From contig CAMNJW010000005.1 of the NCBI GenBank assembly GCA_946541845.1, forward strand, positions 1 through 50,879: a DNA stretch of 50,879 nt. Direction: 5' to 3'. Each line of letters starts with the position of its first letter. Within the stretch, counting starts at the first letter, position 1. The position numbers and the translations under genes are program-made. Below are positions 2,161 through 49,871 of the stretch, in pieces. The notes beneath the pieces are model-generated. The model was given only the letters and a program-made list of their open reading frames with translations, was not told the origin of the DNA and searched no databases. Source of the DNA: an uncultured Methanobrevibacter sp. Lineage in GTDB: Archaea > Methanobacteriota > Methanobacteria > Methanobacteriales > Methanobacteriaceae.

Positions 2161-2241
2161 ATTCAATTTTATATTTAAAAAACAATTTTACAAGCTTATT
2201 TTCTAACTAATTAATATAATTTGAAGTTAAATAGTATAATC

Positions 2242-3108
2242 ATGAATTTTACTACTATATTTCTTATTCAAATTATTGTTACAATGTTATTTTCGATATT
2301 GGCGGCAATTTATGATGTTAAAAAAAATATTGTTCCGGATTCGTTGAACTTTTCTTTGATGGCATTTGGGCTGGTATCTAACCTGATTTTGTCATTGATT
2401 TCAAGTAACATTAAATTCATTTTAGCTTCAATTATTTCAATGGTTATCACATATGTCATAACTTATTTGCTTTGGAAATTGAATATGTGGGGTGGTGGCG
2501 ATGTAAAACTTTTCACAGCTATTGCCACAGTCATACCGTCAGGCATCAATATCAACTTTTTGAATATATTTCCACAGCTGTCGATTTATCCCTTTTCATT
2601 CAGTGTAGTTATAAACAGCATTCTGGTGTCATTCCCTTTTCTGGTCGTGTTCGTCACCCATCTGATTTTCAAAAATGAAATGTTCAAGGACAATATCGAT
2701 TTTCTATTCAATATTTTTAATATCGAAAGTTTGCGATACATGGTCAATTCCACTTTAAATAGACTGATTCCCGTTAAAGATTTGAAGGAGGGAATGATTG
2801 TCAATGATTATTACTTCAACAATGAGCATATCATTGAACTGATTGATGATATTGACGGAAACTTAAAGGTATATAAATCAAATCGAGATGATTTCAAGTA
2901 TTATTTCAAGTCCCAAAGTGCCGGGGGCATAACCGATAGGGAAATGTGGCAGCTAAAGATAATGAATGCACAGGATCTCATCTCGGATGACATCTCAATT
3001 AAGGTATCGTTTCCGTTCACTCCGGCAATTCTTTTTGGTTTAATAATTGCAGTTGTCTATGGGGATGTTATGATGCTGTTTGCAAAAAATCTATTTTTGG
3101 TGATTTAG
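2242..3108 (+). CDS. Type IV prepilin (class III signal) peptidase, A24 family
   Basis: A polytopic membrane aspartyl protease expected to cleave class III signal peptides (Q/F-x-S-x-E) of pilin-like proteins. The two family aspartates are visible: DVKKNIVPD after the first membrane segment and GGGDVKLFTA after the third. Several hydrophobic stretches follow, then a hydrophilic region of about 100 residues and a final membrane segment (FPFTPAILFGLIIAVVYG), the extended form seen in EppA-like archaeal enzymes. I start at ATG 2242; a TTG at 2221 is also in frame and would add 7 residues, and neither has a clear ribosome site. The next gene, which begins one base after this stop, encodes a probable substrate, so the pair is very likely co-transcribed. 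Confidence 0.85.
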   Translation: MNFTTIFLIQIIVTMLFSILAAIYDVKKNIVPDSLNFSLMAFGLVSNLILSLISSNIKFILASIISMVITYVITYLLWKLNMWGGGDVKLFTAIATVIPSGININFLNIFPQLSIYPFSFSVVINSILVSFPFLVVFVTHLIFKNEMFKDNIDFLFNIFNIESLRYMVNSTLNRLIPVKDLKEGMIVNDYYFNNEHIIELIDDIDGNLKVYKSNRDDFKYYFKSQSAGGITDREMWQLKIMNAQDLISDDISIKVSFPFTPAILFGLIIAVVYGDVMMLFAKNLFLVI

Positions 3109-3537
3109 ATGGTTAAGGAAAACAGGGGCCAGATTTCCCTTGAGTATATTTTGATATTCGCAATATCTCTTATAATCCTGATGGTGTTTACGCTGCCATT
3201 GGCAGAACAATCTATAAATAACACTCTTGACGTGTCAGATACTTTAGACGCAAAGAATTGCCTTTCAAAAATAGCTCAAGCAATTAAGCAGGTTTACAGT
3301 GAAGGTCATGGGTCAAAGCATACTGTCTATTTGAACGTCAACAAGAAGGTCAGGGTAGATATTTCAAGCGGTCATGTATCATGCAATTTGAAACTCAATG
3401 ATAAATCAAATAAAAGGTTGGATGAGCATGTTCTATCAAGAATTAAAGACACTTCAATAACATTGGACAAGGGTGAAAATGTCTTAATTGTGGAATGGCC
3501 GGTAAATGGTGAAAACATGTTAATCTATAAACAATAA
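3109..3537 (+). CDS. Class III signal peptide (pilin-like) protein
   Basis: A 142-residue small exported protein. The N-terminus MVKENRG / QISLEYILIFAISLIIL carries a charged n-region, a predicted cleavage site between G7 and Q8, Ser and Glu at +3 and +5, and a hydrophobic helix: the archaeal QxSxE (DUF361-type) prepilin signature. After cleavage the helix would serve as the assembly core, with a roughly 110-residue C-terminal domain outside containing CLSKIAQAIKQVY and a second Cys (SCNLKL) that could form a disulfide. The ATG follows the prepilin peptidase stop directly, which supports a peptidase-substrate pair. The type of filament, if any, is unknown. Confidence 0.85.
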   Translation: MVKENRGQISLEYILIFAISLIILMVFTLPLAEQSINNTLDVSDTLDAKNCLSKIAQAIKQVYSEGHGSKHTVYLNVNKKVRVDISSGHVSCNLKLNDKSNKRLDEHVLSRIKDTSITLDKGENVLIVEWPVNGENMLIYKQ

Positions 3538-3610
3538 TTCACAGTCCATAAAAAATTATTTTAACTATTATAATTTAAATATTAAGTAAGTAATTAAAGG
3601 ACTGTGAATT
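3536..3610. promoter_or_regulatory. 12-bp inverted repeat flanking a putative promoter
   Basis: AATTCACAGTCC (3536-3547) and GGACTGTGAATT (3599-3610) are perfect inverse complements separated by 51 AT-rich bases that include TTTAAATATT (3574-3583), a plausible TATA box for the gene at 3615. It could be an operator looping around the promoter or a long-loop hairpin ending the upstream transcript. Confidence 0.45.
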
Positions 3611-3614
3611 TTTT

Positions 3615-4418
3615 ATGGATATTATAACTACAATTATTTACATCGTTTTATTTATTATAATGATGGTATTTGTATTTTCAATTGGAATGTTGAGGCAATT
3701 CATGCCCAAGAGGGAAGTAATCCTTGTTCTAATTGTTGCTTTTTTAATCGGTGCAATTGGTGGGGCATTTTTCCTTGATCCAATCTATGATGAGCTGCCG
3801 AACGTTGTCAGCACGGTTGAAAGAAACATGCCAAACAACGAAGAAACATTATACCTTGATTTATCCTCATCTATTGATATTAATGAATTGAAGAATAATT
3901 TGTCTTCAACTGAAGGATTCAAATCATTCAAGGAGGAATCAATTACGATTCCTATGTGGACGTTTAATGAACGGGAACACAATTACTTTGAGGAAATTGT
4001 CGGAAATATTGATTCCCATTATGGCGATTATAATGTGACCTCCTCTGAAATCAAGATTTCACTTCAAGAGAATTATACTTCTTCCGAGGCTTTAAAATCA
4101 TTTTCCGATTGGTATAAATTAGTTTATGGAGATACAATATCATATGCACAGGTACATGCAGTGTTAGTAGTTGATTCTGCGTCTCTTGATACCTTTGAAC
4201 ATAATTTACTTGAAAGAGGTATTGTTGCAAGCAGCATTGAGGGACCTATTCAAGACAGCGTAAACAATACAAATTCATCAATGTTATCCAATACTGAGTT
4301 TACATTGGTTTGCGGAGGTATTGGTGTGGTCGTTGCAATAATCGGAATTTACTTTGATTCTGTTGTTCCGGCATATAGACGATTTAATAAATTCTTAAAT
4401 GAAAAACGTAAACGGTAA
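3615..4418 (+). CDS. Membrane protein with large extracytoplasmic domain (unknown)
   Basis: A 267-residue protein with two N-terminal membrane segments (about residues 3-23, IITTIIYIVLFIIMMVFVFSI, and 33-54, VILVLIVAFLIGAIGGAFFL), a hydrophilic region of roughly 180 residues, and one C-terminal segment (FTLVCGGIGVVVAIIGIYF) followed by a positively charged tail. The central region would sit outside the cell if the short loops are inside. It has no recognisable catalytic motif. Its place after a prepilin peptidase and pilin suggests, but does not prove, a role in the same surface system; a separate promoter may lie at about 3574. Its stop lies just before the Dph6 start at 4423. Confidence 0.75.
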   Translation: MDIITTIIYIVLFIIMMVFVFSIGMLRQFMPKREVILVLIVAFLIGAIGGAFFLDPIYDELPNVVSTVERNMPNNEETLYLDLSSSIDINELKNNLSSTEGFKSFKEESITIPMWTFNEREHNYFEEIVGNIDSHYGDYNVTSSEIKISLQENYTSSEALKSFSDWYKLVYGDTISYAQVHAVLVVDSASLDTFEHNLLERGIVASSIEGPIQDSVNNTNSSMLSNTEFTLVCGGIGVVVAIIGIYFDSVVPAYRRFNKFLNEKRKR

Positions 4419-4422
4419 TTTC

Positions 4423-5103
4423 ATGAATGTTGCAATCTTATTTTCCGGTGGAAAAGATAGTACTATGGCATTATATCATGCCTTAGAAGCGAAAGAAGAT
4501 GTCAGATATCTTCTTTCAATGAAATCTAGGAATGATGAATCATACATGTTTCATGTTCCTAACATTCACATTACTGACTTGCTGTCTCAGGCGCTTGATA
4601 TTCCGATAATGTCAGTTGAAACTGATGGAATCAAGGAAGAGGAACTCAACGACCTAAAAAAAGCATTTGTGGATTTAAAGCAATTAGGTGTTGAAGCAAT
4701 TTACACTGGTGCTCTTTATTCAGTTTATCAAAAGTCAAGAATTGAAAAGCTATGTGATGAAGTCGGCTTGAAGGCAATCTCTCCATATTGGCATGTCGAT
4801 GAATTGGAATACATGAGAAAAATAGTCTCTCTAGGTTTTGAGGTAATAATTTGTGGAGTTGCAGCCTGGGGATTGGACGAGTCCTGGCTGGGCAGGGTCA
4901 TTGATGACAAAACAATTGACGAGCTTGTAAAACTCAATGAAAAGTATCAGGTCAACATTGCCTTTGAAGGAGGCGAAGCCGAAACATTGGCTGTTGATGG
5001 TCCTATTTTCAAAAAAAGGCTCAAAATTTTAAAAGATAAAAAAGAGTGGCACCTTGACAGTGGTGTTTATATTATCGAAGATGCAATTTTAGAAGATAAA
5101 TGA
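4423..5103 (+). CDS. Diphthine--ammonia ligase, Dph6-type ATP-pyrophosphatase
   Basis: Predicted to catalyse the last step of diphthamide formation on elongation factor 2, amidating diphthine with ATP and ammonium. The protein begins MNVAILFSGGKDSTMALYHA, the SGGKDS PP-loop of N-type ATP pyrophosphatases, and continues with family landmarks YTGALYSVYQKSRIEKLC, ISPYWH and FEGGEAETLAVDGP. The length of 226 residues matches archaeal members (DUF71/TIGR00289). I prefer ATG 4423, which places the PP-loop at residues 8-13; an in-frame ATG at 4399 lies inside the upstream gene. It ends one base before the stop of the converging gene. Confidence 0.88.
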   Translation: MNVAILFSGGKDSTMALYHALEAKEDVRYLLSMKSRNDESYMFHVPNIHITDLLSQALDIPIMSVETDGIKEEELNDLKKAFVDLKQLGVEAIYTGALYSVYQKSRIEKLCDEVGLKAISPYWHVDELEYMRKIVSLGFEVIICGVAAWGLDESWLGRVIDDKTIDELVKLNEKYQVNIAFEGGEAETLAVDGPIFKKRLKILKDKKEWHLDSGVYIIEDAILEDK

Positions 5104-47383: not shown

Positions 47384-48144
47384 TGATAGACACACACTGC
47401 CACATTGATTTTAAGGACTTTGATGAAGACCGAGAGGATGTCATCAAAAGAGCAAAGGACAAACTGGATAATGTAGTTGTTTCAGGTTACAGCAACGACA
47501 GCAACATGGATGTGCTGCAGCTTTCAAAAGATTATGAAGGTTTTATTTATCCTACATTCGGTTTTCACCCAGTCAGCTCACAAAATGCAACTGATGAAGA
47601 GATTAGTATAGCTCACCAAAACATTGTCAATCATCTTGATGAAATAGTAGCTATCGGTGAAGTGGGAATGGACTATTTTTATGTTACAGACAAGACCCTG
47701 CGTGAAAGACAGCAGGAGATATTCACAGGTTTTCTGGAGCTTGCAAACGAATATAAAAAGCCAATCGTAATGCATGTAAGGGACTGCGAGAAAAAGGCGG
47801 TCAATATCATACCGGATTATGATGACATTCCATATTTTGTTTTCCATTGCTATGGGGGTAGCCTAAAGACTGCCAAGAGAATAATGAACATGGACAATGC
47901 ATACATGAGCTTTTCAACAATGCTGTGCTATTCCAAACAGCATCAGGATTTAATAGAAAAAATAGACTTGAATTATGTTTTAACAGAAACTGACAGTCCT
48001 TATTTGGCAATGACAAAAGAAGAGAGAAATGAACCTGTAAATGTCGTTAAGGCGGTTCATAAAATAGCTGAAATCAAGGACATTGATGTGAGTATTGTTG
48101 ATGAGATTACCACCAACAATGCCCGTAAAATTTTTAAAATCTAG
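47383..48144 (+). CDS. TatD-family metal-dependent hydrolase
   Basis: A 253-residue TIM-barrel hydrolase of the amidohydrolase superfamily. Metal ligands: IDTHCHIDF (HxH), IGEVGMDYF (Glu), IVMHVRD (His), VFHCYGGSLK (His) and TETDSPYLAM (Asp). TatD enzymes often have 3'-5' DNA exonuclease activity; the substrate here is not known. It is translationally coupled to uppS by a one-base overlap and overlaps the converging hypothetical gene by four bases. Confidence 0.9.
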   Translation: MIDTHCHIDFKDFDEDREDVIKRAKDKLDNVVVSGYSNDSNMDVLQLSKDYEGFIYPTFGFHPVSSQNATDEEISIAHQNIVNHLDEIVAIGEVGMDYFYVTDKTLRERQQEIFTGFLELANEYKKPIVMHVRDCEKKAVNIIPDYDDIPYFVFHCYGGSLKTAKRIMNMDNAYMSFSTMLCYSKQHQDLIEKIDLNYVLTETDSPYLAMTKEERNEPVNVVKAVHKIAEIKDIDVSIVDEITTNNARKIFKI

Positions 48145-48509
48145 TAATGAAGTGTGAAATTCAGGTTAATCAGCACATCATTATTTTCTTTTACCGCTTC
48201 TATTTCCAATTCAAAATCAGTTAAATCATCCATTACCAATTTTATCAGATTCCAGTCAAGTAGGGAATCGTTCAAATATATAATGAATTGGTTTCTGTCG
48301 ATTTTTACTTCTTTTCGGCAGAACAGCTTGAAAGCATAAAAATAAAGTTCGATTCTAAAAATCAGATCCTGCTTATCGCCGGCTCCATTGATGAAATATT
48401 CCTTCAAATCATCTTGCAATATTTTGCCTTCATCCCCTGTGTCTGCTTTGAATGTTTCCATTTCCGCTAAATCATCCATCAATTGTTTCTTTTCTTCATC
48501 GCTGTACAT
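48141..48509 (-). CDS. Soluble protein, last gene of pilin-like operon (paralogue of neighbour)
   Basis: A 122-residue acidic cytosolic protein with no membrane segment. Its C-terminal half (LIFRIELYFYAFKLFCRKEVKI, IYLNDSLLDWNLIKLVMDDLTDFELEI, VLINLNFTLHY) aligns by eye with the C-terminal half of the gene at 48510-48884, including the pattern x-Y-x-x-D-SL-x-x-x-L-x-x-x-L-D-D and a final hydrophobic strand. The start ATG abuts the upstream stop. Fourth and last in a minus-strand operon with two pilin-like genes; no known family recognised. Confidence 0.7.
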   Translation of the reverse strand: MYSDEEKKQLMDDLAEMETFKADTGDEGKILQDDLKEYFINGAGDKQDLIFRIELYFYAFKLFCRKEVKIDRNQFIIYLNDSLLDWNLIKLVMDDLTDFELEIEAVKENNDVLINLNFTLHY

Positions 48510-48884
48510 CTAATCACTTAATATAAATTTCAATTTTAAAAGATTGTAACTGTTAGGCATGAAACAAAGATTGAACCTGTTGAAGTTATCATCCAGTTTT
48601 CGTAAAAGACTGAATTCCAGGCTGTCTGGAATGATATACAATATAAACGAGTCTTCAGTGATTTCAATGCCTAAATCTTCCAAAAGAGGTATCTTCAGCT
48701 CGCTGATGAACAGATACTTGTAAACGATTAACTCATAATCGTTTATTGGCTTTTTGCTTTTGATGATATCTGCAAGTTCATCCTGGATTTTACTGGCTAT
48801 TGCTTCAAATGTTTCTTCTGTAATTTCAATCCCTCTTTGAATTTTTTCACTTGCTGAGTGAATCTTTACAAATATATTAGTCAT
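48510..48884 (-). CDS. Soluble protein of pilin-like operon (paralogue of neighbour)
   Basis: A 124-residue soluble protein, TEETFEAIASKIQDELADIIK, then YELIVYKYLFISELKIPLLEDLGIEI, FILYIIPDSLEFSLLRKLDDNF and LLKLKFILSD. It has the same order of a helical N-terminus, a central hydrophobic segment, a D-SL-x-x-x-L motif and an LxLxF end strand as the next gene. I prefer ATG 48884, which shares one base with the stop of the upstream pilin-like gene (TAATG); an alternative ATG at 48893 overlaps it by ten bases. The family is unknown. Confidence 0.68.
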   Translation of the reverse strand: MTNIFVKIHSASEKIQRGIEITEETFEAIASKIQDELADIIKSKKPINDYELIVYKYLFISELKIPLLEDLGIEITEDSFILYIIPDSLEFSLLRKLDDNFNRFNLCFMPNSYNLLKLKFILSD

Positions 48885-49381
48885 TAAACCCATTTAACAT
48901 TAGCTGTCGTGTAGACATAATGGGGAGAGAAAACGGGATTATATAACTTATTGGTTGATTGCGTTGAATTGAAACTGACTGCAACGGATTTTCTTAGATT
49001 ATAATTGATTCTGTCTCCTATGGAAACAAGTTCCTTTGAATCGAATCTGTCGGAGGTTTTTGCATAAACCTTGAACTGAATTCTTTTTTTATCGTAATTT
49101 TTGTCAAGGCCCAAATCAGAATAGGAAATGTTTACTATTTTAACTGAATATGGATATAGCAGGCTGGTTTTTGAATTTGAATAATCTCTGTATGTGTCTT
49201 CAGGATAGATTGCACTTGAAGATGTTGCAAGTCCTTCGATTGCACCGTTTCTTGCAGCAGCCATTGCTGCGGTCAGTTCATTTTCACCTGCAATGAATAC
49301 AATTGAAATCATCAAAATAATAATCAATGTTCCGAATAGGAACAACAGTTCTGCTGAAGTCTGTCCGCTATCTCCAATCAT
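48884..49381 (-). CDS. Class III signal peptide (pilin-like) protein
   Basis: A 165-residue exported protein. The start MIGDSG / QTSAELLFLFGTLIIILMISI has the predicted cleavage before Q7, Glu at +5 and a hydrophobic helix, the archaeal QxSxE prepilin signature. A mature domain of about 130 residues, rich in Ser/Tyr (YPEDTYRDYSNSKTSLLYPY), follows. ATG overlaps the preceding stop as ATGA. With the peptidase at 2242 as likely processor. It could be a minor pilin; no cysteines stand out. Confidence 0.82.
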   Translation of the reverse strand: MIGDSGQTSAELLFLFGTLIIILMISIVFIAGENELTAAMAAARNGAIEGLATSSSAIYPEDTYRDYSNSKTSLLYPYSVKIVNISYSDLGLDKNYDKKRIQFKVYAKTSDRFDSKELVSIGDRINYNLRKSVAVSFNSTQSTNKLYNPVFSPHYVYTTANVKWV

Positions 49382-49773
49382 GTTATCACAATCTTTCCGT
49401 CATCAGTCTTTGAAATGCAATATTTCTGTCCGCTTATCAGCTTATATTTTTCATCCGTTTTTAAAAGGGGCATCAATGATTCTCCTTTTTTGCCGTCATA
49501 TTCAATGGTCAGCCTTGACTTGTCTACGGTTATTTCAAAATATCCCTTGTCCGATGGCAATTCAATACTCTTGGAAAAACCGGCGCCATTTGAATTGACC
49601 TGGCTGATTTTATCTTTTATATCATCTAGAATCAGTCTATGTTCCACACTGTCTGCAATATTGAAACTTGAACTGACATTTGCTTCACCATAAAATAGTA
49701 ATCCTGAGGCAATAATAATTACTATAAATAATGAAAATAGATATTCTAGTGAAATGAAACCTTTATTGTCCAT
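49378..49773 (-). CDS. Class III signal peptide (pilin-like) protein
   Basis: A 131-residue exported protein. The start MDNKG / FISLEYLFSLFIVIIIASGLLFYG has the cleavage before F6, with Ser +3 and Glu +5, and a hydrophobic helix; the usual Gln at +1 is replaced by Phe. The mature domain includes LDDIKDKISQVNSNGAGF and a Cys near the end (KYCISK). It is first in the minus-strand pilin-like operon and divergent from cbiF with 98 bases between. Filament or secretory role is not known. Confidence 0.8.
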   Translation of the reverse strand: MDNKGFISLEYLFSLFIVIIIASGLLFYGEANVSSSFNIADSVEHRLILDDIKDKISQVNSNGAGFSKSIELPSDKGYFEITVDKSRLTIEYDGKKGESLMPLLKTDEKYKLISGQKYCISKTDDGKIVIT

Positions 49774-49871
49774 ATTTTTTAATTATTTTAAAAATTAATA
49801 AAGTTTACTAAATTTAAAGGTCAATTTTGATACATAATAATTAAATATGACTTGAAATAAAAAGTTAAACC

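Follow-up and report, generated by a model that had tools for sequence, protein, structure and literature searches.

In the 50,879-nucleotide stretch of DNA analysed here (the window), which comes from a draft genome of an uncultured Methanobrevibacter sp. (1.58 Mb, 118 contigs, 85% complete), two genes for pilin-like proteins, P1 and P2, run directly into two genes for small soluble proteins, S1 and S2. The question raised by this locus is whether the four genes make up a single module, and what two cytosolic proteins might be doing at the tail of a pilin operon. The first-pass annotation had read them together as a plausible undescribed surface or secretion module, with the soluble pair as a possible heterodimeric chaperone or cytosolic regulator.

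Architecture of the locus

The four genes occupy 48141-49773 on the minus strand, flanked by a divergent cbiF/cobM and a convergent tatD, the stop of which overlaps that of S2 (Table 1). As first described, the reading frames abut, with an ATGA overlap at P1/P2, TAATG at P2/S1 and a zero gap at S1/S2, and there is no assembly ATPase among the four. Only the 98-bp spacer in front of P1 could accommodate a promoter for the operon without entering coding sequence, as the genes meet without spacers at the remaining junctions. The class III signals reported for the first two proteins are also present, with a glycine at -1, a glutamate at +5 and then a hydrophobic stretch (KG/FISLEYLFSLFIVIIIA in P1 and SG/QTSAELLFLFGTLIII in P2). 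P2 scores 14.5 bits with the Pfam Class_IIIsignal profile, under the 23.7-bit cut-off, and P1 is not listed.

Table 1. Features of the window discussed in the text.
Feature	Position	Strand	Basis
Type IV prepilin peptidase	2221..3108	+	Pfam match, PF01478, E=2.3e-14
Class III pilin next to the prepilin peptidase, reduced clade-1-like T4P locus	3109-3537		
Membrane protein of the reduced T4P locus	3615-4418		
Diphthamide-synthase PP-loop protein of the reduced T4P locus	4399-5103		
S2, soluble alpha/beta protein, 122 aa, last gene of the operon	48141..48509	-	ORF and model
S1, soluble alpha/beta protein, 127 aa, paralogue of S2	48510..48893	-	ORF, model and orthologues
S1 from the likely ATT start, 104 aa	ATT at 48824-48822	-	Orthologue alignment
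Scar of a CMD deletion between P2 and S1	48822..48893	-	Relatives with CMD or CMD remnants
P2, pilin-like, class III signal SG/QTSAE, 165 aa, core gene of the order	48884..49381	-	ORF and signal
P1, pilin-like, class III signal KG/FISLE, 131 aa, first gene of the operon	49378..49773	-	ORF and signal
AT-rich divergent spacer to cbiF/cobM, 98 bp	49774..49871	.	ORF map

A pilin pair found across the order

The P2 profile finds matches at E <= 0.01 in 138 of 139 Methanobacteriaceae genomes, across all 17 genera. In 129 of the 139 the match is strong (E < 1e-10), while the remaining matches are short N-terminal hits to the signal peptide, at least some of them where a contig end cuts the locus. When the search was extended past the family, a match was present in 95 of 97 genomes of high completeness. 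P1 lies upstream of P2 in the contexts inspected, often close to cbiF, and its orthologues stand beside P2 throughout the Methanobacteriales. Both genes are under purifying selection, with a median dN/dS of 0.22 for P1 and 0.15 for P2, though here and for S1 and S2 below the figures are rough because the synonymous distances are large.

The profiles relate the pair to known pilins. That of P1 matches pilins of the main type IV pilus (T4P) locus in Methanothermobacter and Methanobacterium type genomes at E about 1e-24 and 6e-29, and that of P2 matches other pilins of the main locus at 1e-10 and 1e-12. This main locus is consistent with the clade-1 pilus described by Makarova et al. (2016, PMC4858521), who report that clade-1 loci include a diphthamide-synthase PP-loop gene and that the clade-1 ATPase is the only secretion ATPase found in Methanothermobacteria. 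P1-P2 is a widespread core pair of the order, related to the pilins of the known clade-1 locus.

Part of the machinery is encoded elsewhere in the window. The genes at 2221-5103, for a prepilin peptidase, another class III pilin, a membrane protein and the diphthamide-synthase PP-loop protein, come after CTP synthase in an order similar to that of the T4P locus of M. thermautotrophicus, which holds more genes between. The peptidase is likely to serve P1 and P2. In each of 15 relatives a single strong secretion ATPase and two genes of the TadC type are encoded away from P1-P2. In the 85%-complete source draft no strong match to an assembly ATPase was found; it gave weak ATPase-like hits, and its TadC is one truncated copy at a contig end, so that the ATPase is probably missing because the assembly has a gap.

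The pair can be compared with the Epd minor pilins of Methanococcus maripaludis, which belong to a clade-1 archaeal T4P (PMC4858521). Shared features are the class III signals, an A24 prepilin peptidase, an ATPase and TadC that are separately encoded in the relatives, minor pilins of similar size and the homology of P1 to a main-locus pilin of M. thermautotrophicus. P1-P2 differ in lying apart from the main locus.

Two paralogous soluble proteins

S1 and S2 are paralogues. Alignment of the two families with hhalign gave a probability of 77% and E=2e-5 over 96 columns, and all 29 S1 sequences score above 10 bits with the S2 HMMs, a level reached by 2-4 of 1000 shuffled sequences. In the opposite direction the signal is weaker, the S1 HMM reaching 8 of 28 S2 sequences, and BLASTP of the single S1 and S2 sequences gave no signal (E=1.2). 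The single-chain AlphaFold2 models (mean pLDDT 84 for S1 and 80 for S2) are alike in the order of their predicted elements, HHH-EE-H-EE. An old duplication had been suggested from a shared D-S-L...L pattern and LxLxF strand, and the profiles and element order bear this out as a resemblance beyond chance. Both genes are under purifying selection, with a median dN/dS of 0.16 for S1 and 0.07 for S2.

Sequence searches of Pfam, NCBIfam and the PDB gave no usable family match for either protein, and Roadblock/LC7 (PF03259) matched none of the 27 S2 or 29 S1 members. Foldseek searches of both models against the PDB, and of S1 against viral proteins, returned weak hits only (E > 0.003); these included designed proteins, GspL/XcpY domains, TRAPP and YbjN, and we did not use them as evidence. 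Two hits of S1 at E < 1e-6 were to AI-designed TIM barrels, with no stretch passing on its own, and were rejected. S1 and S2 are a new, orphan cytosolic family, and operon position is their one link to the pilins.

A changeable slot between P2 and tatD

In a gene-neighbourhood search across the genus, about 50 genomes had S1 and/or S2 between P2 and tatD, with a direction and order that never varied, and all 34 loci with organism names from the S2 profile search were from Methanobrevibacter. A gene of the carboxymuconolactone decarboxylase family (CMD, PF02627) sits between P2 and S1 in most S1-bearing relatives. Seven states of the slot were seen: CMD-S1-S2 (23 genomes, including one with a contig starting before P2), CMD-S2 (10 genomes), S2 alone (8 loci, one bearing an S1 remnant), S1-S2 without an intact CMD (5 genomes, the source genome included), CMD alone (3 genomes), CMD-S1 (2 genomes) and empty (4 genomes, with tatD still adjacent). 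On the P2 tree there are at least 21 changes among these states, below every one of 200 label shuffles, so the states are inherited yet often changing. S1, S2 and CMD are additions to this slot made at the level of the genus, and each has undergone repeated loss. The idea of one undescribed four-gene module is not supported by this comparison, since the pilin pair is order-wide, related to a known pilus type and served by machinery encoded elsewhere, and S1 and S2 are dispensable, lineage-restricted additions.

Two genomes have unusual arrangements. In G092 (L095 9351-12507) S2 retains about 24 codons, and the space between S1 and tatD holds a 607-aa ORF. G049 carries two versions of the whole locus (L073 and L012), for which its listed contamination of 9% may account.

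A 5' remnant of CMD of about 35 codons is left in G066, a decayed remnant in G077 and none in the window, where the P2-S1 junction is the scar left by deletion of CMD. As CMD stands between P2 and S1 in most relatives and has been lost here, the TAATG coupling of the two genes is recent.

S1 is confined to part of the genus and S2 has a wider range, from which we infer that S1 is the derived copy of an S2-type gene. Relatives of S2 at about 30% identity in other genera adjoin unrelated genes. Two such relatives (L076 9400-9777 and L075 9759-10199) lie beside what we judge by sequence to be a HerA-like ATPase or a glycosyltransferase, not beside pilins. This bears on the proposal that the soluble pair are dedicated pilin chaperones. 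Their operon position would suit such a role, as would a very weak resemblance in fold between S1 and YbjN/AmyR, which we take to be a secretion-chaperone-like family, but no fold match has E < 0.001 and most genera keep P1-P2 without S1 or S2. Given that S1 and S2 are dispensable and lineage-restricted, and that distant S2 relatives occur away from pilins, we regard a dedicated chaperone as highly improbable. The two may form a heterodimer or have a regulatory role, as had been suggested.

In Methanothermobacter and Methanobacterium type genomes the genes directly behind P1-P2 encode a Roadblock/LC7 protein, a KaiC-Ras-like GTPase fusion and KaiC proteins (L148 8801-11125, L261 4231-7167 and L263 8401-11365; families were scanned in L148, and L261 and L263 were judged by sequence and length). 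S1 and S2 could be a comparable switch, since in both cases cytosolic proteins follow the same pilin pair in the same slot and direction, and archaeal T4P loci are reported to include Roadblock proteins (PMC4858521). Against this, S1 and S2 have no sequence or Pfam relation to the cluster, a Roadblock match included, and many genera have neither module; we consider a switch of this type improbable.

A further possibility is that S1, S2 and CMD are passengers at a permissive P2-tatD site, transcribed with the pilins while performing unrelated cytosolic work. In its favour, most genera and several genomes of the genus have P1-P2 without any of the three, the slot states vary down to an empty one, and the distant S2 relatives are unlinked to P1-P2; we also know of no role in pili for the CMD enzyme family. 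Their long retention at the site, with constant strand and order and tight junctions, and the strong conservation of S2 (dN/dS about 0.07) are harder to reconcile with passengers. Taken together, this explanation falls somewhat short of an even chance, and is almost as likely as one in which S1 and S2 are partners of the pilins.

The start codon of S1

S1 had been annotated as a protein of 124 residues, read from the ATG at 48884; a further ATG lies upstream at 48893. The reading frame is there, but its 5' end (MTNIFVK...) is probably not the start of the protein. In 8 of the 29 S1 genes (L024, L032, L038, L039, L041, L046, L051 and L052) the stretch from the upstream in-frame stop to the conserved region contains no ATG, GTG or TTG, and these eight have a dN/dS of 0.17, like the whole family. 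Alignment of the genes on the first residues that are conserved puts ATG at the expected start in 12 of them, ATT in 16 and ATC in 1. An expected start directly before Thr-Phe accounts for 9 ATG and 4 ATT, and one three codons further upstream for 3 ATG, 12 ATT and 1 ATC. Because these two sub-positions were chosen after viewing the alignment, the count over 29 of 29 genes is descriptive and not a test, and the sequences are related and not independent; the lack of a usual start codon in the eight genes does not hinge on how the sub-positions were chosen. It is the eight genes that point to AUU as the probable start of S1, in the window at 48824, where the conserved sequence begins.

A candidate upstream motif, of the GGTGAT or GAGGGAT type, lies a few bases before the expected start in many of the genes. 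The S1 residues preceding the ATT have a pLDDT of about 50, which adds little because orthologue coverage of this segment is thin. An alternative to an AUU start, recoding from CMD into S1, was considered and rejected: S1 comes after the CMD stop without a change of frame in G073 and in a different frame in G045, and it persists without an intact CMD.

Bacterial infC is a gene with an AUU start codon. S1 is similar to genes of this type in having ATT at the expected start, often behind a Shine-Dalgarno-like sequence, and differs in being archaeal, in having no known relation to translation factors and in that its AUU start is a prediction from sequence. In the open-access literature, as represented by titles, abstract openings and one paper searched by term, we found neither an AUU start codon in archaea nor a description of this operon. 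One report describes aIF1 as favouring discrimination against non-canonical starts in archaea (PMC6237735). It may be that AUU is a conserved start of S1 in some 17 species, keeping S1 low relative to S2, and that the ratio of the two serves to tune the pilin operon, though this seems to us rather unlikely.

Discussion

The explanation that we tentatively prefer, while giving it a little less than an even chance as a whole, is that P1-P2-S1-S2 would be a single transcript in which the pilins are the core and S1 and S2 an accessory pair expressed with them. P1 and P2, co-translated, would be minor type IV pilins that the prepilin peptidase at 2221-3108 processes and that enter a clade-1 archaeal pilus, with its ATPase and platform components encoded at other places in the genome. 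The soluble pair would have arisen inside the genus by tandem duplication of an S2-type gene and taken its place at the end of the operon, next to a CMD gene since lost from the source genome. S1, made at a low rate from its AUU, and S2, from an AUG, would then act together in the cytosol, and may in some way act on the pilins.

We favour this explanation because the junctions lack spacers and the P1-P2 pair is conserved across the order, because P1 is homologous to a pilin of the main T4P locus, and because the window itself has a prepilin peptidase, a further pilin and a diphthamide-synthase gene, with secretion ATPase and TadC-type genes in 15 of 15 relatives. The paralogy of S1 and S2, the purifying selection on all four genes and the constancy of slot, direction and order in about 50 genomes argue in the same direction. 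Against it stand the absence of S1, S2 and CMD, each from several genomes that keep P1-P2, the unrelated neighbours of the distant S2 relatives, the want of any fold or family match that would give S1 and S2 a function, and the strong ATPase hit not found in the draft.

The pilin pair is of an ordinary, known kind, and it is the S1 and S2 partner proteins that are new. Gut methanogens gain a defined, order-wide pilin pair whose part in pili and attachment can be put to the test, together with two orphan proteins of the cytosol that operon position ties to it. If the AUU pattern is confirmed, it would represent a conserved archaeal start outside AUG, GUG and UUG, and would imply that in many genomes S1 is truncated or overlooked by gene callers.
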